Origin: Verrucomicrobiia bacterium
GTDB taxonomy: Bacteria > Zixibacteria > MSB-5A5 > DSPP01
Assembly: GCA_035574275.1 (NCBI GenBank)
Contig: DATLYY010000006.1
Span: 1 to 54,998, forward strand
Length of the DNA: 54,998 bases
Direction of reading: 5' to 3'
In this document: piece after piece, positions 2,624 to 44,245 of the stretch
How the letters are laid out: each line of letters opens with the position of its first letter
Position numbering within the stretch: position 1 is the stretch's first letter
Program-made: the position numbers and the translations under genes
Notes under the pieces: model-generated
Databases searched by the model: none
What the model saw: the letters and a program-made list of their open reading frames with translations, nothing else
Told to the model about the DNA's origin: nothing

Positions 2624-3619
2624 GTGAGCGAAGAGAAAAGAAAAAAACATTGGTTGAAGCGGCCCTTTGGCCTCCTTCTCCGAATCGCCCTAATCTACTT
2701 CCTTTTGGGGTTGGTGCTGGCCGTCCCTTTTTCCAACCTTCTTTTCCATCCGCCCGCCCATCGAAAAATGATTGACTCCCTTACCCAGCCCGGCGCGGAG
2801 AAGATTCCTTCACTTTGGAAAGAGAGATACGGCGTCAACGTTGACGTTCTTTCCGTCACCTCCACGGCCGGGCCGAAGCCGGTTCAACTTTCCGCCTGGT
2901 GGGTCTGTCGGGATTCGACACGCAACAAGCCGACAGTCGCATTTCTGGCGGGCAATGCGGGTTTAAACCCGGCCGCCTTCGAGGATGAAATCCGGCTTTG
3001 CTGCGAAATGGGTTTCAACTGTCTGCTTATGGACTGGCGGGGCTACGGCGCTTCCGCCGGGGCACTTTTAACCTACGGCTGGTACGACCGCGGTGACTTT
3101 GACGCCGTCCTTGACACCTTGGTTGGCCGCTACGGCATCGACACGTTGCAAATCGGCATCTGGGGATACTCGATGGGGGCTTCCAACGTGGTGGCCATTG
3201 CCGCCGAACGGCCGGAAATAAAAGCCCTTTTGCTCTACGCCCCTTGGTCCGACCCCTTGCCGATGGCCGTGCATTATGTCTGGCGAAGCTATTCCGTCCC
3301 CAAGTTTCTGCTCTATTTTCCCGTCTGGACGGCCATCAAAATCGGCACCTGGCGCAATAAGGGAGGCGTTTTGGACCCGGCGGAAGAGGCCAAAAAAGTC
3401 CGCTGTCCCGTGATGGTCGTCCACGGCGACATCGATGACATCGTCCCGCCGGAGCTGACCCGCCGGCTTTTTAATTCCCTCTCCGGGCCGAAGGAACTGG
3501 TGGTCATCCCCGGCGCCCAGCACAACGATTTGTTCCAAGTCATCGGGCAGGAACGGTATTTGGGGCAAATGAAGAATTTCTTTCTGCCGCTGCTTGCAAA
3601 CAAAAACCAGCCGCATTGA
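2624..3619 (+). CDS. Membrane-anchored alpha/beta hydrolase
   Basis: 331 residues. One N-terminal membrane helix (about residues 17-38) anchors a hydrolase domain outside the inner membrane. The nucleophile elbow is GYSMG at 181-185 (Ser183); the acid is probably Asp272 in HGDIDDIVP and the base His300 in GAQHND. The layout resembles the BEM46/YqiA-like serine hydrolases, whose substrates are mostly unknown; esterase, thioesterase or peptidase activity cannot be told apart here. The start is GTG, preceded by GGCGGA. It is divergent from the CRP/FNR-type gene. Confidence 0.8.
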   Translation: MSEEKRKKHWLKRPFGLLLRIALIYFLLGLVLAVPFSNLLFHPPAHRKMIDSLTQPGAEKIPSLWKERYGVNVDVLSVTSTAGPKPVQLSAWWVCRDSTRNKPTVAFLAGNAGLNPAAFEDEIRLCCEMGFNCLLMDWRGYGASAGALLTYGWYDRGDFDAVLDTLVGRYGIDTLQIGIWGYSMGASNVVAIAAERPEIKALLLYAPWSDPLPMAVHYVWRSYSVPKFLLYFPVWTAIKIGTWRNKGGVLDPAEEAKKVRCPVMVVHGDIDDIVPPELTRRLFNSLSGPKELVVIPGAQHNDLFQVIGQERYLGQMKNFFLPLLANKNQPH

Positions 3620-3693
3620 CATAGACCCCAATGAAACCTAACTTTCGGGCTGATTTAGCCAGATTATCTGGCTGAAAAAAACCGGAGGTTGTC

Positions 3694-5895
3694 ATGATTT
3701 CGCGGCATTTTAATTCCGGGAGCAAAGTTGTTCTTTTGGCTACCGGTTTATCTCTTTGTTCGATTCCCCTGTTGCATCCAGCCGAAGCGCCGGCCCCGCC
3801 TGCGACTCCCAAAAAGCCGGTGACGGACGAGTATCAAGACGTGAAGGTCACCGACGATTACCGCTGGCTGGAGGATTACAAAGATCCGGAAGTCCGTAAA
3901 TGGAGCGAAGCGCAGAATGCGCGCACCCGGGCCTTTTTGGACCAGTTGCCCGGGCGGGAACAGATTCAAAAACGGCTGAAAGAGCTCTACGGCTCCCGTT
4001 CTTCCAGTTACTTTGGTTTGCAATATCGTGGGGGAACGCTTTTTGCCCTGAAATTTCAGCCCCCCAAAGAGCAGCCCTTTCTGGTCACTTTGAAATCAGC
4101 CGATGATCTGGGTTCCGAGCAGGTGGTGATTGATCCGAGCGTTCTGAATGCCAAAGGGACCACGTCGATTGATTTTTACTCCCCGTCCCTCGACGGGAAG
4201 CTTGTCGCCGTTTGCCTTTCCGAGGGAGGAAGCGAGGACGGCACCGTCCACATCTACGATGTAGCCGCGGGCAAGGAGCTCTCGGATGTAATTCCACGCG
4301 TCAATTATCCCACCGCCGGCGGGAGCGTTGCCTGGAAGGCGGACGGCAGTGGTTTTTACTACACCCGCTATCCGCAAGGAAGCGAGCGCCCAAAGGAAGA
4401 CATAAATTTCTATCAACAGATATGGTACCACAAACTCGGTACCCCGGCTGGTGAGGACGTTTACGCCATCGGGAAAGAGTTCCCGCGCATTGCGGAAATC
4501 GAAATGGAAACCACAGACGACGGGCGTTTTCTTTTGGCCACGGTCTCCAATGGGGATGGCGGGGAGTATGCCCATTATCTTTTGGATCCCTCCGGCAAAT
4601 GGACGCAGATAACCCGGTTCGAGGACCGGATTACCAAAGCGGAACTGGGACCGGATGGAGCACTGTATCTGCTTTCGCTTAAAAATTCCCTTCGCGGCAA
4701 AATTTTACGCCTGCCGCTGGAAAATCCGGTTCTGGAAAAGGCCGCCGTTTTTGTGCCGGAAGATGCCGAACTGGTCATCCAGAGTTTCGTTCCCACCGCC
4801 AGCCGGCTTTACCTTGTGGATCAAGTGGGCGGCCCTTCGCAAATGCGGGTTTTCGACCTAAAGGGAAAGCTTTTGCCTTCCGTGGAGTTGCCGCCGGTCT
4901 CTTCCGTCGGGCAGGTTGTGCGGGTGGAAGGGGATGAAGTTTTGTTTTCCAGTTCCAGCTATCTTACCCCGAACGCCTGGTATCGCTATGACCCCGCGGC
5001 GGGAACGACCGAGCGTACGGCCCTTTTTGAGACCTCCCCGGCCGATTTCTCCGACTGCGAGGTGGTGCGGGAGTTTGCCACCTCCAAGGACGGCACCAAA
5101 GTCCCGGTAAACATCATCCGTCTCAAGGGAACCAAGCTGAACGGCAAAAATCCCACCCTTTTGACCGGCTACGGCGGGTACGGCATCAGCCAGCGGCCGA
5201 ACTTCAGCGATTCCCGGCGGGTCTGGTTGGAGCAGGGGGGAATCTGGGCGGTAGCCAACATACGCGGGGGAGGCGAATATGGCGAGGCGTGGCACCTGGC
5301 CGGCAATTTGACCAAGAAGCAGAACGTTTTCGATGATTTTGCCGCCTGCGCCCAGCATCTAATCAAGGCGGGCTACACCAATCCTTCCAAGCTGGTCATC
5401 GAAGGGGGGTCAAACGGCGGGCTTTTGATGGGGGCGGCGCTGACCCAGCACCCCGATTTATTTGCCGCCGTGGTGACCCACGTGGGGATTTACGATATGC
5501 TGCGGGTGGAACTGGACCCCAATGGGGCCTTCAATGTCACCGAGTTCGGCACGGTCAAAGACCCGGAGCAGTTTAAGGCACTTTATGCCTACTCCCCCTA
5601 CCATCACGTAAAAGACAAAACGGCCTATCCGGCGGTTTTCATTTTGACCGGGGAGAACGACGGCCGGGTGAATCCTTTGCATTCCCGCAAAATGGCGGCC
5701 CGGTTGCAGGCGGCCAGCGGCTCAAAAAAGCCGGTTTTGCTCTGGACTTCCCGTTCCGGCCACGGTATCGGCAGTTCGTTATCGGAAAGGATTTCCCGCA
5801 GCGCGGACGTTTATACTTTTATGTTCGACCAGTTGGGCGTGCCGTATCTGGACAAGAAAACCCATCTCCAATCGACCGAAGTTGAAATAAAGTGA
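3694..5895 (+). CDS. Prolyl oligopeptidase (family S9A), exported
   Basis: Cleaves short peptides after proline. The 733-residue length is normal for S9A: an N-terminal part, a beta-propeller (about residues 90-440) that gates access, and a C-terminal alpha/beta-hydrolase domain with Ser573 (GGSNGGLL), Asp656 (ENDGRVNP) and His690 (SRSGHGIG). A hydrophobic stretch at residues 10-30 ending near AEA looks like a signal peptide, so it probably acts in the periplasm. GGAGGTTGTC precedes the ATG. It is followed by a strong hairpin terminator and seems to be a single-gene unit. Confidence 0.95.
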   Translation: MISRHFNSGSKVVLLATGLSLCSIPLLHPAEAPAPPATPKKPVTDEYQDVKVTDDYRWLEDYKDPEVRKWSEAQNARTRAFLDQLPGREQIQKRLKELYGSRSSSYFGLQYRGGTLFALKFQPPKEQPFLVTLKSADDLGSEQVVIDPSVLNAKGTTSIDFYSPSLDGKLVAVCLSEGGSEDGTVHIYDVAAGKELSDVIPRVNYPTAGGSVAWKADGSGFYYTRYPQGSERPKEDINFYQQIWYHKLGTPAGEDVYAIGKEFPRIAEIEMETTDDGRFLLATVSNGDGGEYAHYLLDPSGKWTQITRFEDRITKAELGPDGALYLLSLKNSLRGKILRLPLENPVLEKAAVFVPEDAELVIQSFVPTASRLYLVDQVGGPSQMRVFDLKGKLLPSVELPPVSSVGQVVRVEGDEVLFSSSSYLTPNAWYRYDPAAGTTERTALFETSPADFSDCEVVREFATSKDGTKVPVNIIRLKGTKLNGKNPTLLTGYGGYGISQRPNFSDSRRVWLEQGGIWAVANIRGGGEYGEAWHLAGNLTKKQNVFDDFAACAQHLIKAGYTNPSKLVIEGGSNGGLLMGAALTQHPDLFAAVVTHVGIYDMLRVELDPNGAFNVTEFGTVKDPEQFKALYAYSPYHHVKDKTAYPAVFILTGENDGRVNPLHSRKMAARLQAASGSKKPVLLWTSRSGHGIGSSLSERISRSADVYTFMFDQLGVPYLDKKTHLQSTEVEIK

Positions 5896-5920
5896 GCCGC
5901 TAAACCTGCGGCAGGCACCA

Positions 5921-5948
5921 AGGGCGGCCTTGGGCCGCCCTTTTGTTT
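5921..5948 (+). terminator. Intrinsic terminator of the prolyl oligopeptidase gene
   Basis: Perfect stem GGGCGGCC/GGCCGCCC (5922-5929 and 5933-5940) with a 3-base loop, followed by TTTTGTTTTT. Confidence 0.85.
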
Positions 5949-5989
5949 TTCAGTGTTTATTTTTTTTTTGAATCAGTATCTTCCGCCCA

Positions 5990-6715
5990 ATGTTTGACGG
6001 CGGAGCCATTTCCATCCTCGGCCTCGGATTCTTTTTGGGTTTAAAACATGCCCTCGATGCCGACCATCTGGTGGCCGTTTCCACCATCATCTCCGAACGG
6101 AAGGGTTTCTGGAATTCATCCCTTGTCGGCGCAATGTGGGGATTGGGGCACACCGCCTCGCTTCTTGCCGTCGGGCTTTTGGTCATCGCCTTCAATTTCC
6201 AAATACCACCCAAAATTGCTTTGGGAGTGGAATTCGCCGTCGCCATAATGCTCGTGGCTTTGGGCGGCAACGTTCTCTGGAAGATTTTCCGCGGTGCGAC
6301 TTTTCATATCCATACCCACAGCCACGAAGGGCATCTGCATATCCATCCTCATTTTCATAAACCGGTGGAGCATCGGTCGGGCGAGCATACTGCTCACCAC
6401 CATCCCGTCCCTATCGGCAAAACGCCCTTTTTCGTTGGAGCACTTCACGGCTTGGCAGGCAGCGCCGCTTTGATGCTTTTGGTTCTGGCCACCATCTCCT
6501 CCCGGCCGCTGGCCTTGGCCTATATAGGCATTTTCGGCATCGGCTCGGTCGGTGGAATGTTTTTAATGAGCGCCCTAATCGGCCTGCCCTTTTCTTTCAC
6601 CTCAAAATATGAGCGGGCCAACAAAATCATCCGCACCACCGCCGGGGCGGTCAGCGTTTGCTTTGGCCTCTTTCTTGGCTATCAGATTTGGTTTGTGGAG
6701 GGGTTGTTTTTGTGA
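5990..6715 (+). CDS. NiCoT/UreH-like metal transporter
   Basis: 241 residues with about six membrane helices. The first carries HALDADH (residues 20-26), the HX4DH signature of nickel/cobalt permeases and related UreH/NicO proteins; a second conserved patch, HGLAGSAALM, follows the central loop. That loop (about residues 103-140) is very rich in histidine (HIHTHSHEGHLHIH) and is probably a metal-binding cytoplasmic segment. Ni2+ or Co2+ is likely from the family, but selectivity cannot be read off. No urease, hydrogenase or cobalamin genes are nearby. There is no Shine-Dalgarno sequence before the ATG. Confidence 0.82.
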   Translation: MFDGGAISILGLGFFLGLKHALDADHLVAVSTIISERKGFWNSSLVGAMWGLGHTASLLAVGLLVIAFNFQIPPKIALGVEFAVAIMLVALGGNVLWKIFRGATFHIHTHSHEGHLHIHPHFHKPVEHRSGEHTAHHHPVPIGKTPFFVGALHGLAGSAALMLLVLATISSRPLALAYIGIFGIGSVGGMFLMSALIGLPFSFTSKYERANKIIRTTAGAVSVCFGLFLGYQIWFVEGLFL

Positions 6716-6763
6716 TTCAAGAATTAATACTATCCGTTTTTTGAGAAAAAGTTTGTAAAAAGT

Positions 6764-8266
6764 ATGACCTGGGAACAAATAGACCTAGATGAGGAGTCGT
6801 TAAATTCTTTTTTTAATGATTCTTTCTTGGGAATCAGTGATGTTTGGAGTAAAATACAATATCGAATACTCGCAGTACCTGACCCACTCACAAAACAGTT
6901 GACAGACAGTAAAGTATTGATTCCACTTGGTGTAGCTCTTTATCTACTTCCAGAAAATGAAAAAACTGTATTACCTTTGCCTAAGCCGCTGATTATTGAA
7001 CCTTTTGAATTCTTAGATGGCCATATACCTTTCACCAAAGAAGCTTTTATGCAGCTTATTCACCAATTTGTGCAACCCCCTAATAATGAATTTCACCTCG
7101 ATTCAGATTTTGTTCTTTGGGGAGAGCCATCTAATATTATTTACTATCAACATTTTTATGAACCAAACGAAAAGGGACCCTATCCTTTAGCTTTTCCGAT
7201 TACGATCAAAAGGACGATTAAACGAACAGAGATCGACCTCTTCCGAATTTATTTTGATTCAGTTGAGAGTAGGATTAAGCGACAAATCGGGGACCGTTTG
7301 GAAAATATCGTTAGAAAATGGCTAGGGCCAACTACAAATTTTTACCAACCCAATGACCCACAAAATGAAGGAATTTTCTTAACAATTCACGCTCCTAGTT
7401 GGATAAAATTTTCGGATTTACTACTGTATGCAGATAATCTTGAGTTTTCGATTTTAGCACCTCCAAATTTAAGGCCAAAAAAAGTTAAGGTTGTCATTGA
7501 TTCAAATGGGGGTGAACAATTGTTGGAACAAAGCGTTAAAGAAATTGAATTTCCAATAAAATCAAAATGGAAACTTCCAACGACCCCCAAAAAAATTGAG
7601 ATTCGATTACTTTGCAATGATTTTATTTTAGAAAAAAGACAGATCCATAATAAAGGAGTATTGAATTCCCGCTTTAAGCTTTTGGAAAGAATGAGGAATT
7701 TGGATATTGATAAACAAATACTGAATATTCAGAAAAAAGTAAAGGAAAGAGAAAAAGTTAATTTGGGATCGCCAAATCATCTCGAACAATTGGTATTAGA
7801 CCTGTTTACCACTTTGGGTTTCACCTGCTTTTTTACGGGAACACAAAATGACATGGCCGACTTAGTTGCTTTTAGAGAAAACGAAAAAGGAATAGCTGAA
7901 TGTTACGTGATTGAATGTTCTGAAATACCCAAAGGAAGTAAAGAGCTCACCGCTTTTTTTGCGAGGACAAAAAGCTTGGGTCGAGAAATAGGGTGTGAGG
8001 TGCAGCCTATTTTCATTACAAGCGTGAAAAGGGAAGATATTAAAAACCAAAAAGATTTTGCCAAAATTGCGCTTCTAACAAGTGAAGATATTGTTGAACT
8101 GAATAACATGTCTAAGCGAAATGAACCTTTATCTAATACGATTAGATATATCGACCTTCAAATTGTACCACCCAGAGAGTACAGGATTGATCCAATTCTT
8201 GCTCAACACCCAGACATAGTGATATCAGTTTATTTAGAATATGAACGGCTTGTTGAGGATTCCTAA
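6764..8266 (+). CDS. Unknown 500-residue protein with nuclease-like C-terminal domain
   Basis: I do not recognise a family for the whole protein. The gene is conspicuously AT-rich (about one third G+C in the line I counted) beside GC-rich neighbours, suggesting transfer. Residues 1-320 are mixed alpha/beta without known motifs. About residues 338-450 resemble the Mrr-type restriction endonuclease fold: a helix with LEQLVLDLF, an Asp in DMADLVAF, then a strand ending IECSE where Mrr-type enzymes have an E/Q-x-K motif, then PIFITS. The usual lysine is replaced by serine, so activity is doubtful. Its stop codon overlaps by two bases the start of a duplicated gyrB tail. Confidence 0.6.
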   Translation: MTWEQIDLDEESLNSFFNDSFLGISDVWSKIQYRILAVPDPLTKQLTDSKVLIPLGVALYLLPENEKTVLPLPKPLIIEPFEFLDGHIPFTKEAFMQLIHQFVQPPNNEFHLDSDFVLWGEPSNIIYYQHFYEPNEKGPYPLAFPITIKRTIKRTEIDLFRIYFDSVESRIKRQIGDRLENIVRKWLGPTTNFYQPNDPQNEGIFLTIHAPSWIKFSDLLLYADNLEFSILAPPNLRPKKVKVVIDSNGGEQLLEQSVKEIEFPIKSKWKLPTTPKKIEIRLLCNDFILEKRQIHNKGVLNSRFKLLERMRNLDIDKQILNIQKKVKEREKVNLGSPNHLEQLVLDLFTTLGFTCFFTGTQNDMADLVAFRENEKGIAECYVIECSEIPKGSKELTAFFARTKSLGREIGCEVQPIFITSVKREDIKNQKDFAKIALLTSEDIVELNNMSKRNEPLSNTIRYIDLQIVPPREYRIDPILAQHPDIVISVYLEYERLVEDS

Positions 8267-8323
8267 ATATCCAAATTCCTCACGTACTTGGCGTTTTCTT
8301 CGATGAACTTGCGGCGGGGTTCC
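8265..8323. repeat. Second copy of the gyrB 3' end (59-bp direct repeat)
   Basis: Matches the end of gyrB at 9028-9086 in 58 of 59 positions and in the same orientation. On the minus strand it encodes the GyrB ending [19 protein letters not shown] followed by TAG (gyrB itself uses TGA). The one internal difference is a silent Tyr codon change (TAC for TAT). Beyond the repeat the copy reads DNPA before EPRR where gyrB has DQV, as if it came from another GyrB. It lies in frame directly after the hepT stop codon. The two copies bracket mntA-hepT. Confidence 0.9.
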
Positions 8324-8334
8324 GCCGGGTTGTC

Positions 8335-8679
8335 TTATTTCCCGGTCTGCTTGAGAAGATTGTCGATTTGGCTCTGTAGGATTTTCAATTCCTTTTGTAG
8401 CAGATTCCACAGCAGGTTAAGGTCAACCGAAAAATACTTGTGAATCAAAACGTCCCTCATTCCGGCTATTTTCTTCCACGGAATTTCGGGATGGCGCGAT
8501 TTGAATTCGTCCGGGATACTTTTCGCCGCCTCGCCAATAATCTCCAGCCGCCGGACTACGGCATCCTGCACTTGCGGCGATTGGTTGAACTCGTCCTGTG
8601 TCAGTTTGCCCGTGTATTGCTCAATTGCGCCAATGCTTTCGGCGATGTGCGTAAGGAAGATGCGCGGGTCTTTGGTCAC
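8335..8679 (-). CDS. hepT: HEPN-domain toxin, HepT type (DUF86)
   Basis: 114 residues, all helical. It carries the HEPN active-site motif RX4HXY as RDVLIHKY (residues 75-82: Arg75, His80, Tyr82). HepT proteins are ribonuclease-type toxins; the partner MntA is known to silence them by transferring AMP to the Tyr of this motif, which is present here. It overlaps mntA by 4 bp (ATGA), so the two are translationally coupled. Both lie on the same strand as gyrB and right behind it. All key residues are kept, so the toxin looks functional. Confidence 0.9.
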
Positions 8680-39324: not shown

Positions 39325-41670
39325 ATGGCTAAAAAGCTTTGGTTTTCGGCGCTCTTCATCCTTCTAATCCCCACCCTTCTTTTTGCCTTTCAGCCGCTTT
39401 TTGATACGTGGCTAAGCCATGACGTTGGGTGGCTGCCGAATTCGGTGATTGCTGCGGATTTGGACGGGGATGGAAAACTTGATTTGATTGCTGTCAACGG
39501 TCCAAACAACACCGTTTCGGTTTTGAAAAACGGCGGGGATGGAGCTTTTGCCGCCAGGGTTGACTACACTGCTGGCAACTATCCTTATTCTGTTTTTGCC
39601 GCTGATTTGGACGGCGATGGAAAGCCGGATCTGGCAGTGGCCAATCTCTTTGGCCCCACCGTTTCGGTCTTGAAGAACAACGGTGATGGCACTTTTGCCA
39701 CCCACATTGAATACGTAACAGGAAGTCGTCCTTACTCAGTTTTTGCCGCGGATTTTGACGGGGATGGAAAATCGGATCTGGCGGTGGCGAATTTTTCTGA
39801 TACCACGGTTTCGGTGTTGAAGAACAACGGGGATGGGACTTTTGCCGCCAAGGTGGATTACGAAACAGGAGCCTATCCTCGCTCCGTTTTTGCCGCCGAT
39901 TTGGATGGGGATGGAAAGCCGGATCTGGCCGTAGCCAATAGTTACGACTCCAGCATTTCGATTTTAAAGAACAACGGGGATGGGACTTTTGCCGCCAAGG
40001 TGGACTACGAAACAGGAGCCTATCCTCACTCCGTTTTTGCCGCCGATGTGGATGGCGATGGGAAGTCAGATTTAGCCGTGGCAAATTTTATAGCCAAAAC
40101 CGTCTCAATCTTGAAGAACAACGGGGACGGAACCTTTGCGGCCAAGATTGACTACGCTACAGAGGGCAATCCTTACGCTGTTTTTGTCGCTGATTTGGAT
40201 GGGGATGGAAAGCCCGATTTGGCAGCGGTCAATGACTATCACAATAGCGTTTCGGTTTTGAAGAACAACGGAGATGGAACTTTTGCCGCTAAAATTGACT
40301 ATCCAACTGGTTCTCGCCCCTGGTCTGTGTATGCCGCTGATTTGGACGGGGATGGGAAACCGGATTTAGCCATAGGTAGTGTTCTTGCCCACGCTGTTTC
40401 GCTTCTGATAAACAAGGGAGATGGAACCTTTCCGGCTATCACTAAGGTTGACTACGCCGCCGGATACCGTCCCTACTCTGTTTTTGCCGCCGATTTTGAT
40501 GGAGATGGGAAGCCGGATGTGGTTACAGCTAATGTTGATAGCCACACCGTATCGGTCTTGAAAAACAATGGAGATGGCACTCTTGCCGCCAAGATGGACT
40601 ACGCAACTGGAAGCAGTCCTTACTCAGTATTTGCCGCCGATTTCGACGGGAATGGAAAACCGGATCTGGCGGTGGCCAATTATTATGGCTACTCCGTTTC
40701 GGTCTTTAAGAACAATGGAGACGGGACTTTTGCTACCAGAGTTGACTATGGCGCGGGACGTCATCCTTGTTCTGTATTTGCGGGCGATTTGGACGGGGAT
40801 GGCGATCCGGATTTGGCTGTGGCTAATGACGGTAGCAACGCCGTTTCGATTTTAAAAAATAATGGGGACGGAACATTTGCTGCCAAAGTGGACTACGCGA
40901 CCGGAATCTACCCTCGCTCAGTTTTTGCCGCCGATTTGGATGGGGATGGGAAGCCGGATTTAGCGGTGGCCAATGGTCAAAGCAACACCGTTTCGGTCTT
41001 GAAAAACAACGGGGACGGAACCTTCGCCCCCAAGGTGGACTATGGTACGGGGAGCTTTCCCCTCTCGGTTTTTGCCGCTGATTTGAACGAAGATGGGATA
41101 CCGGATTTGGCCGTGGCGAATGACAGCAGCAACACTGTTTCGGTCTTGAAGAACAATGGGGACGGCACTTTTGCCGCCAAAGTGGACTACAGTACGGGAG
41201 TTTATCCTCACTCTGTTTTTTCCGCAGATTTGGATGGAGATGGAAAGCCGGATTTAGTGTTGGCCAATGCTTATGGCAATGCCGTTTCGTTCTTAAAGAA
41301 CAATGGAGATGACACTTTTGCCCCCAAGGTGAACTACGGTACAGGAGGTTTTCCTTCCTCTGTGGTTGTCGCGGATTTTGACGGGGATGGGGATAAGGAT
41401 TTGGCCACGGCCAATTATGGGGACAACACCGTCTCAATATTGAGAAATTTGTCAATTCCTCTGAATTGTGCCGCCGTCAAAGGAGATTTAAATGGTGATG
41501 GAATCATAACGGTTTTTGACGTTGTATTGATATTGAACTGCACTTTCTTAAATGAAGGGAGTTGTAGCGACTGTTTCGCTGATGTGAATTGCAGCGGCAG
41601 TTTAACCCCTGTCGATGTAGTCCTCGAACTTTTTGCGGTTTATTTGAATCAACCTTTTCCCTGCTCGTAA
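39325..41670 (+). CDS. Secreted FG-GAP/VCBS repeat protein with dockerin-like end
   Basis: 781 residues: signal peptide (1-22), 14 tandem repeats of about 49 residues, then a dockerin-like module. Each repeat reads roughly SVFAADLDGDGKPDLAVAN then SVLKNNGDGTFAAKVDY. DxDGDGxxD is a calcium-binding loop, and such FG-GAP repeats fold as propeller blades; 14 would make two seven-bladed propellers. The end has two good EF-hand loops (GDLNGDGIITVFD, ADVNCSGSLTPVD). It probably mediates binding or adhesion; no enzyme motif is seen. GGAGGCGG lies before the ATG. Confidence 0.88.
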   Translation: MAKKLWFSALFILLIPTLLFAFQPLFDTWLSHDVGWLPNSVIAADLDGDGKLDLIAVNGPNNTVSVLKNGGDGAFAARVDYTAGNYPYSVFAADLDGDGKPDLAVANLFGPTVSVLKNNGDGTFATHIEYVTGSRPYSVFAADFDGDGKSDLAVANFSDTTVSVLKNNGDGTFAAKVDYETGAYPRSVFAADLDGDGKPDLAVANSYDSSISILKNNGDGTFAAKVDYETGAYPHSVFAADVDGDGKSDLAVANFIAKTVSILKNNGDGTFAAKIDYATEGNPYAVFVADLDGDGKPDLAAVNDYHNSVSVLKNNGDGTFAAKIDYPTGSRPWSVYAADLDGDGKPDLAIGSVLAHAVSLLINKGDGTFPAITKVDYAAGYRPYSVFAADFDGDGKPDVVTANVDSHTVSVLKNNGDGTLAAKMDYATGSSPYSVFAADFDGNGKPDLAVANYYGYSVSVFKNNGDGTFATRVDYGAGRHPCSVFAGDLDGDGDPDLAVANDGSNAVSILKNNGDGTFAAKVDYATGIYPRSVFAADLDGDGKPDLAVANGQSNTVSVLKNNGDGTFAPKVDYGTGSFPLSVFAADLNEDGIPDLAVANDSSNTVSVLKNNGDGTFAAKVDYSTGVYPHSVFSADLDGDGKPDLVLANAYGNAVSFLKNNGDDTFAPKVNYGTGGFPSSVVVADFDGDGDKDLATANYGDNTVSILRNLSIPLNCAAVKGDLNGDGIITVFDVVLILNCTFLNEGSCSDCFADVNCSGSLTPVDVVLELFAVYLNQPFPCS

Positions 41671-41746: not shown

Positions 41747-41754
41747 AAAAATTT
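41747..41754. repeat. Target site duplication, left copy
   Basis: AAAAATTT, identical to 44009-44016. Eight-base, AT-rich duplications are characteristic of IS1595-family insertion. Confidence 0.85.
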
Positions 41755-41778
41755 GGTAATTATATACTTGACACACCC
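41755..41778. repeat. Left terminal inverted repeat
   Basis: 24 bp beginning GGTAATTATATAC and ending CACACCC. It differs from the right end at positions 13, 16 and 19. Confidence 0.9.
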
Positions 41779-41796
41779 GTTTTTATGTATTATATT
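41768..41796 (+). promoter_or_regulatory. Transposon promoter overlapping the left inverted repeat
   Basis: TTGACA at 41768-41773 (inside the repeat), 17 bases, TATATT at 41791-41796. A near-consensus promoter for the three-gene transposon operon; transcription would start about 20 bases before the transposase ATG. Confidence 0.75.
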
Positions 41797-41824
41797 GGGT
41801 GCGTAGAGTAAATAAGGAGGATTG

Positions 41825-42745
41825 ATGACATACAATAGTTTGTTGGAATTAACCGAGGCGTTTCCGACCGAACAAAGCTGTATCCGGCATCTTGAAAAAC
41901 TACGCTGGCCAGAAGGGGTAGTTTGTCCGAATTGCCAAGCCAGTCGGAAAATCGGCGAAATTAAAACCCGGAACCTTTACAAGTGTGGCGATTGCAAAAA
42001 GCAGTTTAGCGTTCGCATCGGAACGATTTTCGAGGAAAGCCGTATTTCCTTGCGAAAATGGTTTATGGCCATTTGGCTAATTAGCTCTCATAAAAAGGGA
42101 ATTTCGAGTTGCCAGCTTGCCAAAGATATTCGGGTTACGCAAAAAACCGCTTGGTTTATGTTGCATCGCATTCGAGAAATTTCCAGCAAGATAAATGGCG
42201 GCACTTCGCACTTGACAGGGTTGGTAGAAATTGATGATACTTACATCGGCGGAAAGGAGCGAAACAAGCATAAGGACAAACGCCTCACCGGAACGCAAGG
42301 CCGGAGTATAAAAGGCAAAACTCCCGTTTTCGGAATGATGCAAAGAGGCGGCAATATCAAAACCTTCAAAGTGAAAAACCTACAGGGAGTAACGGTTAAT
42401 GTCATTGTGCGGGAAAATGTCGCTCCCAAAGCGAGGGTCATCACCGATGAATATACCGGCTATCAATTTGAACCGCTCGGCCTTGACCAACAACGGGTAA
42501 ATCATTCCCGGCGGGAGTATGTAATCGGCCAACTCCATACCAACAACATTGAGGGGGCTTGGTCTTTGCTGAAACGTGGCATTTTGGGCATCTATCACCA
42601 CGTCAGCGATAAGCACCTGCAACGCTACCTTGACGAATTTGTTTCCAAGTTTAATAGCCGGAAAACAAAAGACCCAATCCGGGTTGACAATTTTTTGGCC
42701 GGTTCGGAGGGTTTGCGCCTCACCTATGAGGGGTTGACTTCGTGA
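41825..42745 (+). CDS. IS1595-family (ISXO2-like) transposase
   Basis: 306 residues. An N-terminal zinc ribbon has Cys34/Cys37 and Cys54/Cys57 (CPNC, CGDC). A helix-turn-helix-like region follows (KGISSCQLAKDIRVTQKTAW). The catalytic domain offers Asp137 (VEIDDTYIGG), Asp208 (VITDEYTGY) and, near the end, HTNNIEGAWSLLKRGILG with Asn240 and Glu243. GGAGG precedes the ATG at 41825; a TTG three bases earlier is less likely. Its stop overlaps the GTG start of the methyltransferase (GTGA), so the two are coupled. The gene is intact. Confidence 0.95.
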   Translation: MTYNSLLELTEAFPTEQSCIRHLEKLRWPEGVVCPNCQASRKIGEIKTRNLYKCGDCKKQFSVRIGTIFEESRISLRKWFMAIWLISSHKKGISSCQLAKDIRVTQKTAWFMLHRIREISSKINGGTSHLTGLVEIDDTYIGGKERNKHKDKRLTGTQGRSIKGKTPVFGMMQRGGNIKTFKVKNLQGVTVNVIVRENVAPKARVITDEYTGYQFEPLGLDQQRVNHSRREYVIGQLHTNNIEGAWSLLKRGILGIYHHVSDKHLQRYLDEFVSKFNSRKTKDPIRVDNFLAGSEGLRLTYEGLTS

Positions 42746-43704
42746 AAAATTCTTTCAATGATTTACTTGGTCAATTAGTTCGCCCGAAATCGGCAAAACC
42801 GGAACCGTTTGTCGAACTTATTCACGGCGATTGCCTGGTCAAAATGAAGGACATTCCCAACAACTCCATTCACTTGGTTTTGACCGACCCGCCTTATTTC
42901 CTCGATTGTTTAAGTGATGAATGGGATACGGAGAAAATCAACAAAAGGAAAAAGCGGGCGGGAATTGTAGGTGGTTTGCCCGTTGGAATGAAGTTTGACC
43001 CTCAACAAGGAGTGGAACTGCAAAAATTTTTCGAGTCAGTATCGAAAGAAGTTTTACGCATCCTTGTTCCCGGTGCATTTTTTATTTCGTTTAGCCAGCC
43101 CCGTCTTTCCCATAGAATGATTATCGGAGCGGAAAATTCCGGTTTTGAAATTCGGGATTTGCTGGCGTGGCACTATCGAAACAAGGCACAATTTAAGGCG
43201 TTTTCTCAAGACCATTTTGTCAGGAAAATGAACATTTCCAATCTTGAGAAAAAAGACCTTATTCGGCAAATGCAGGGAAGAAAAACGCCTCAATTAAGAC
43301 CGCAGTTTGAAACAATGATGTTGGCACAAAAACCGAAAGAGGGAACTTTCGTTGAAAATTGGAAAAAGTGGAAAGCTGGCCTTATAGATGCGACCCGCAC
43401 TTTGAACGGAACAAAAAGTCCCTCCACTTTGATGACTGTCGATAAGCCCATCCGGGAAAAATATAATTTGCATTTAACCGTAAAGCCGGTTCATCTTCTA
43501 AAACATTTGATTGAACTTTTTACAATCGGCGGCCAAGTTGTATGCGACCCCTTCCTCGGAAGCGGTTCAACTGCTCTTGCCGCAATTCAGGCGGAACCGG
43601 AACCGAGAAGCTGTATCGGTATTGAAATCAACAAGGAATTTTTGAAAATAGCGCAAGAAAGGTTACGGGACTTTAACGTCATACAAGGAGCGAAAAATGC
43701 TTAG
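42742..43704 (+). CDS. DNA (adenine-N6 or cytosine-N4) methyltransferase, transposon passenger
   Basis: 320 residues. Motif IV is DPPY at residues 49-52 and the AdoMet motif I is DPFLGSGSTALAA near residues 269-281, so the order is that of beta-class enzymes; the middle (about 100-240) is the target-recognition region. DPPY favours adenine methylation. No restriction enzyme is recognisable beside it, so it looks like an orphan methylase carried by the transposon. The GTG start overlaps the transposase stop, and the end overlaps the next gene by 8 bp. The target sequence cannot be predicted. Confidence 0.92.
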   Translation: MKNSFNDLLGQLVRPKSAKPEPFVELIHGDCLVKMKDIPNNSIHLVLTDPPYFLDCLSDEWDTEKINKRKKRAGIVGGLPVGMKFDPQQGVELQKFFESVSKEVLRILVPGAFFISFSQPRLSHRMIIGAENSGFEIRDLLAWHYRNKAQFKAFSQDHFVRKMNISNLEKKDLIRQMQGRKTPQLRPQFETMMLAQKPKEGTFVENWKKWKAGLIDATRTLNGTKSPSTLMTVDKPIREKYNLHLTVKPVHLLKHLIELFTIGGQVVCDPFLGSGSTALAAIQAEPEPRSCIGIEINKEFLKIAQERLRDFNVIQGAKNA

Positions 43705-43990
43705 ACCAAGACAACTTGCCCGCATCGGCACGTTCCATATGCACGAGGCCATTTTGGATGTGCTGGAAGAACATTATGAGGAAGGACACGGACTCGGAGC
43801 CGCCGAAATTAGCAGGCGATTAGGCGTTTGGCGCATAGGCCCGCCCTTAAATGACGCAATCGTAACGGGCTACTTGCTTGAACTCGAATCGCAAAAAAGA
43901 GCTGAGCGGGTTCCCCAGGCCGATAATAGGGGCGGCTGGCGTTTGACTGCCGAAGAACACGAGCGCAGACGGGATGATATTGCGGGGTGA
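43697..43990 (+). CDS. Small winged-helix-like protein, transposon passenger
   Basis: 97 residues, unknown family. A helical segment AILDVLEEHYEEGHGLGAAE is followed by ISRRLGVWRIGPPLNDAIV, then TGYLLELESQKRAERV and GGWRLT, a layout like a winged helix that binds DNA. It overlaps the methyltransferase end by 8 bp, with AAGGAG before the ATG. Its TGA (43988-43990) lies inside the right inverted repeat. It could control the operon or assist the methylase; this is inference. Confidence 0.6.
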   Translation: MLRPRQLARIGTFHMHEAILDVLEEHYEEGHGLGAAEISRRLGVWRIGPPLNDAIVTGYLLELESQKRAERVPQADNRGGWRLTAEEHERRRDDIAG

Positions 43991-44008
43991 GTTAAATATA
44001 TAATTACC
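43985..44008. repeat. Right terminal inverted repeat
   Basis: Starts GGGTGAGTTAAATATATAAT and ends TACC; its reverse complement matches the left end in 21 of 24 positions. Confidence 0.9.
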
Positions 44009-44016
44009 AAAAATTT
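44009..44016. repeat. Target site duplication, right copy
   Basis: AAAAATTT, identical to 41747-41754. Confidence 0.85.
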
Positions 44017-44182
44017 TTAGAAAATTTTTTTCTTCTTAAGATCGCAGGTTTTATCAAAATTCCCATCTTTTTCGCCTCCAACCTGCTCTCGGCCAACGGC
44101 TTCGCAAAATCACAACAACTTCGGAGTGAATAATGGGTGGTGGGCCTATAGTAGAGGGACGTGGTGCGGGGTTTTTGGATTT

Positions 44183-44221
44183 TCACTAATCCCTAATCCC
44201 CAATCCCTGCTCCCTGTTTTA
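44183..44221. repeat. GGGATTAG-type dispersed repeat, copy 2
   Basis: Reads CACTAATCCCTAATCCCCAA then TCCCTGCTCCCTGTTTT on the plus strand, the reverse complement of the type at 18688-18724 (AAAACAGGG...GGGATTAGTG). The surrounding gap 44017-44245 has no gene that I can see. Confidence 0.5.
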
Positions 44222-44245
44222 TTTCCCCGCCCTTGCAAAATCGAT

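Follow-up and report, generated by a model that had tools for sequence, protein, structure and literature searches.

A complete IS1595-family transporter element carrying a DNA methylase and a winged-helix gene, and the methylase and restriction-modification cargo of its relatives

Results

The element and its insertion site

The window analyzed in this study, a 54,998-nucleotide stretch of contig DATLYY010000006.1 from a Verrucomicrobiia bacterium, contains a complete, intact IS1595-family element at 41755-44008 that was inserted with an 8-bp duplication (Table 1). The element harbors three co-directional genes with intact frames, which encode a transposase, a DNA methylase and a small winged-helix protein; the transposase gene overlaps the methylase gene by 4 nt, and the latter overlaps the winged-helix gene by 8 nt. 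The coordinates agree with the initial annotation, which had described three overlapping genes, transposase first, the last of which has its stop codon within the right repeat. The 24-bp repeats (21/24 identical) and the 8-bp duplication that it had reported were also recovered by direct reading and by repeat search, and they were the only hit of a whole-window scan that required, at two sites separated by 0.7-6 kb, an exact 8-bp duplication together with terminal repeats matching at 18/24 or better. When the same scan was applied to 40 shuffled windows, the best terminal-repeat match was only 16/24.

Table 1. Positions of the element's features in the window
Feature	Positions	Strand	Evidence
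Left 8-bp target duplication, AAAAATTT	41747..41754	none	read from sequence; window scan
Left terminal inverted repeat, GGTAATTATATACTTGACACACCC, 24 bp	41755..41778	+	repeat search
Promoter-like TTGACA-17-TATATT	41768..41796	+	consensus match, 11/12 positions
IS1595-family DDE transposase, 306 aa, CPNC/CGDC zinc ribbon	41825..42745	+	Pfam, NCBIfam
Beta-class N6/N4 amino DNA methylase, 320 aa	42742..43704	+	PF01555; motifs TDPPY and FLGSGS intact
Winged-helix protein, 97 aa	43697..43990	+	AlphaFold model; adjoins methylase in six other loci
Right terminal inverted repeat, reverse complement GGTAATTATATATTTAACTCACCC	43985..44008	-	repeat search; holds winged-helix stop codon
Right 8-bp target duplication, AAAAATTT	44009..44016	none	read from sequence; window scan

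A search of the host genome for further copies, as the initial annotation had proposed, showed that the element is present once in the 2.51-Mb assembly. An empty insertion site was sought in a congener and was not found, and the left flank there was not syntenic. The insertion point lies just downstream of a long gene (39325-41670) with FG-GAP/VCBS-like repeats and a dockerin-like C-terminus. Just to the right of the element, an intergenic interspersed repeat (44104-44225) recurs in the host genome, with 25 matches that are complete or partial, and has several matches in the congener G001.

Transposase, promoter and passenger arrangement

The transposase scored above the curated cut-offs for PF12762 (DDE_Tnp_IS1595, 5e-42), PF12760 (3e-14) and the NCBIfam IS1595 model (NF033547, 2e-60), which upheld the earlier assignment to an IS1595-type transposon. 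Translation more likely starts at the ATG (41825) that follows AAGGAGG than at the TTG (41822) of the ORF list. The single transposase and single pair of ends ruled out a composite transposon. The element is a transporter IS (tIS), a single IS whose ends enclose passenger genes that transposition does not need: the methylase and winged-helix genes lie between the repeats, and relatives combine similar ends with other passengers.

By consensus match, a candidate sigma-70-like promoter starts in the left repeat, with its -35 box inside that repeat. In 28 IS1595 elements, mismatches between left and right repeats clustered at positions 13-19, over the promoter TTGAC, and positions 1-2 and 11-12 showed no left-right difference in any element. 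Because the mismatches cluster over the -35 positions, the right repeat appears to have been freed of an inward-reading -35 box.

Methylase and winged-helix protein

The methylase, which starts with GTG, matched PF01555 (N6_N4_Mtase, 2e-29) and has the beta-class motif order, in which motif IV (DPPY; TDPPYF at 48) precedes motif I (FxGxG; DPFLGSGST at 269). In structure searches, its predicted structure resembled CcrM and other beta-class enzymes. It shares the Pfam family, motif order and predicted fold with CcrM, M.RsrI, M1.HpyAVI and M.BceJIV; unlike these enzymes, to which it is approximately 20% identical, it has a winged-helix partner gene. Methylases of Thermus plasmids (approximately 40% identical) were considered as a possible home and rejected, being located in other operons or solitary, with no IS1595.

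The winged-helix gene starts at an ATG (43697) preceded by AAGGAG and ends with a TGA (43988-43990). Its product gave no family or sequence match above threshold in Pfam, NCBIfam or the PDB, and no match in plasmids or phages. In its AlphaFold model (mean pLDDT 80), the protein folds as a winged helix that resembles, with weak scores, MarR, SmtB and Z-alpha domains. The likeness to these proteins is one of predicted fold; unlike them, or the controllers of restriction-modification (R-M) systems, the protein has no sequence membership in a known regulator family. Structure searches with the methylase and winged-helix models returned classes and no specificity. It is possible that the third gene is a regulator, as had been suggested earlier.

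The methylase/winged-helix pair in other genomes

Relatives of the pair were located by scans with a methylase alignment, and a winged-helix gene lay directly 3' of the methylase in six other loci. Close methylase relatives (63-67%), at L069/L014 and L070/L056, were in genome G023, Zixiibacteriota bacterium B22T1B11, which belongs to another family of the same class. Outside the window, the pair was found with IS1595 sequence twice, so that the three-gene order for which a search had been proposed recurs complete in one locus (L078) and decayed in another (L069). In the decayed copy (L069/L014), an IS1595 transposase remnant with an internal deletion is followed by an intact methylase, a winged-helix gene 62% identical to that of the window and a right-repeat-like sequence, GGGTGTGGCAATTATATAATTGCC. 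L070/L056 has a truncated winged-helix gene, and its methylase is joined to a piece of a recombinase-like frame. In L056, a close methylase relative fused behind a tyrosine-recombinase-like N-terminus is clustered with two further recombinase-like genes (3525-4841, 5762-7087 and 7293-8546).

The pair was also present in distant phyla, with loci in Elusimicrobiota (L071), Dadabacteria (L074), Poribacteria (L076 and L080) and a gammaproteobacterium (L078). The last is the second complete element, with repeats identical at 22/24 positions that enclose a transposase, a methylase, a winged-helix gene and a second winged-helix gene. The second winged-helix gene encodes a C-terminal HNH nuclease domain (PF01844, 35.4 bits; cut-off 21.4). 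As a query against plasmids and phages, the winged-helix-HNH protein gave matches to its HNH part only. No matching target duplication was found at the ends of L078. The absence of a restriction enzyme noted in the initial annotation therefore holds for the window copy and does not hold for L078 or for many IS1595 relatives, which carry clear restriction enzymes.

No IS1595 transposase was found near the pair in L071, L074, L076 or L080, and many methylases of the window clade are solitary chromosomal genes. Since such IS1595-free pairs and solitary methylases exist, the methylase and winged-helix pair is an independent module picked up by IS1595. The annotation had reasoned that its interpretation would fail if the passengers were found routinely without the transposase, and this is partly so: methylase homologues are common alone, and the pairs are IS1595-free in those four loci.

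The solitary methylases, the presence of the orphan enzyme CcrM among the nearest solved folds, and the nuclease-free pairs of L071, L074 and L076 would all fit an orphan epigenetic switch, in which the methylase and winged-helix protein alter host gene expression and have no restriction ancestry. We consider this explanation unlikely, as a winged-helix-HNH nuclease adjoins the pair in L078 and whole R-M systems are present on sister IS1595 elements.

Cargo of related IS1595 elements

A transposase-only scan of IMG/VR gave 79 loci, to which genome searches added more; the limits of related elements were set from their 24-bp repeats and 8-bp duplications, and their cargo was checked by Pfam or PADLOC (Table 2). 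Ten of the 33 end-delimited IS1595 elements in a hand-compiled list carried a methylase; these elements were found by the transposase alone, and the transposase loci are the best matches to the window transposase rather than a random sample. Six of the ten also have a nuclease, as a gene or as a domain, or else a type IIG-like enzyme. As a control, methylases were counted around the transposase in 58 IMG/VR loci that extend for 2 kb to either side, and they occurred downstream in 8/58 and upstream in 1/58 (p = 0.02).

Table 2. Methylase and R-M cargo of IS1595 relatives
Loci	Cargo
L169, L170, L172	N4/N6 methylase + MvaI/BcnI endonuclease
L174, L180/L181, L216	D12 methylase + PDDEXK_11 nuclease; ends not found for L216
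L175	methylase with Mrr domain
L183	type IIG-like methylase + S subunit
L187	HsdM-S-like
L171, L179, L279, L280	methylase, no recognized nuclease
L284-L286	methylase-HNH fusion

Further relatives carry DUF3800, P63C or genes of no assigned family. DUF3800-like passengers, mostly on the opposite strand, were seen in the IS1595 elements of L003/L057 (999-2988), L192, L228, L235, L237 and L243, and the L057 element has the exact duplication TTAGCAAA. A P63C-domain passenger lies immediately 3' of the transposase in the elements of L004, L185, L186, L188 and L219. In L176, L177, L178 and L190, this position is occupied by a small helix-turn-helix-like gene (76-90 aa), and their transposase clade is related to the methylase carrier L171. 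Repeats enclosing nothing besides the transposase, the other finding that would have weighed against the annotation, are not usual, and delimited relatives mostly hold extra DNA and other cargo.

Genome G322 has three copies of a 2.53-kb methylase-HNH element (L284, L285 and L286), each at its own site and flanked by its own exact 8-bp duplication (TTTAATTT, TAAATTTT and TAAAATAA); the first two copies are identical base for base. These three copies with different duplications are therefore strong evidence that such elements move. Their fusion gene is read convergently to the transposase.

In methylase-carrying elements, the cargo usually overlaps the transposase gene or lies within 14 bp of it. 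In the R-M operons, the methylase is directly 3' of the transposase; if the nuclease has a gene of its own, that gene is last. The last cargo stop codon lies within the right repeat or at its edge in the window element, L169, L170, L172, L173, L174, L181 and L078, where it is the stop of the winged-helix-HNH gene. The same packing thus recurs in relatives with unrelated cargo, which bears out the earlier view of a compact selected unit and not a random capture. It is very improbable that the passengers are inert hitch-hikers trapped between the ends by chance with no selected role. The decay of related copies, namely the truncated winged-helix gene of L070/L056 and the gutted transposase of L069, would suit that explanation; against it stand the overlapping intact frames with ribosome-binding sites in the window element, the passengers of L069 that are still open despite the decayed transposase, and the recurrence of the same architecture with repeated capture.

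The varied cargo also bears on a self-tuning explanation, according to which the methylase would act on the element itself: by methylating sites in the repeats, the promoter or their vicinity, it would limit or time transposition, and the winged-helix protein would be a co-regulator. Its model is IS10, whose transposition is limited or timed by Dam methylation. The location of the methylase in the transposase operon, the -35 box within the left repeat and the copy number of one are all consistent with such tuning. However, related elements with similar ends carry unrelated methylases, nucleases, DUF3800 or P63C proteins, and therefore no one methylase is needed for such transposition. This explanation is accordingly regarded as quite improbable.

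Ancestry of elements and cargo

In the transposase tree, the window transposase groups (support 88/91) with those of L180, which carries D12 and PDDEXK genes, and of L175 and L179, which carry two different methylases. Clade tests rejected a single origin of the transposases of all methylase or R-M carriers (p = 1e-53) and a single origin of the IS1595-linked window-type methylases (p = 3e-5), and gave p = 0.108 for the window and L078 transposases as sisters. Since single origins were rejected, the cargo was captured repeatedly.

Discussion

The window element is a tIS that probably carries the modification half of a compact R-M module, because a protein of the sister element L078 joins the same winged-helix domain to a nuclease and relatives carry whole R-M systems. 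A complete R-M system in the window copy was ruled out: no nuclease family is present, no cognate endonuclease gene was found in the element, the third protein has no nuclease family and, of these two complete elements, only L078 has the HNH domain. Lacking a nuclease, the window copy cannot at present serve in defence. The copy number of one, the failure to find an empty site that would show recent movement, the lack of a matching duplication in L078 and the IS1595-free pairs in four genomes count against the modification-half explanation.

If this explanation is correct, the promoter with its -35 box in the left repeat would read a coupled transposase-methylase-winged-helix operon, as the anatomy suggests. 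The methylase, judging from its family and DPPY motif, would modify a short motif of the host chromosome, with N6 of adenine as the most likely position. The winged-helix protein, considering its constant linkage and its fold, may be the DNA-binding partner of the methylase or a regulator of the operon. The pair may have descended from an R-M module, and the IS1595 group would capture such modules repeatedly. The benefit would be that of R-M cargo, in that methylated host and element DNA may be safe from nucleases of the same specificity; where a nuclease is present, defence or addiction may be served.

A more specific reading, which we regard as rather unlikely, is an R-M type not described before, with the winged-helix protein as its DNA-recognition subunit, in which the separate partner targets the methylase, the fused copy targets the HNH nuclease, and IS1595 spreads full and nuclease-free versions. 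If so, one recognition fold would set both methylase and nuclease activities.

R-M systems are known to move, and their vehicle is often unclear. Because transposase relatives of the window element repeatedly carry methylases, and even whole R-M systems, the small IS1595 transposons look like a recurrent vehicle that spreads DNA-methylation and DNA-cutting systems between bacteria. Elements that measure 2-4 kb and combine a single transposase and an R-M operon with 24-bp ends and an 8-bp duplication are a simple and testable vehicle, and they raise the question of how a nuclease-carrying transposon settles in an unmethylated genome.

In the openly licensed literature, covered mostly as titles and abstracts, no report was found of single IS1595 elements recurrently carrying whole R-M systems. 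The founding paper on IS1595-family tIS is reportedly that of Siguier, Gagnevin and Chandler in 2009. That IS1595 elements can carry passengers, and that IS of other families can carry methylases, is already known from the literature. IS1595 tIS such as ISNha5, tISCpe8 and MTnSag1/tISSag10 (PMC11891212, PMC5704250, PMC8496243, PMC3129680) are described there with an IS1595 DDE transposase, terminal inverted repeats of approximately 25 bp, an A+T-rich target and passengers between the ends, as in the present element. Their passengers, in the same excerpts, are transcription regulators or antibiotic resistance genes, whereas the window element carries the methylase and winged-helix pair and its relatives carry whole R-M systems. 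The tIS IS220 is likewise a single IS with a methyltransferase passenger; unlike the present element, it has a transposase of another family (IS1380), and the passages available from PMC11891212 mention no nuclease partner for it. R-M systems have also been described on composite or transposon-like structures moved by IS activity (PMC3031569 and works cited there). In the sections of that source that were available, the R-M genes have complete IS copies on either side or travel with a plasmid, whereas the IS1595 cargo lies inside one element, beside its own transposase.
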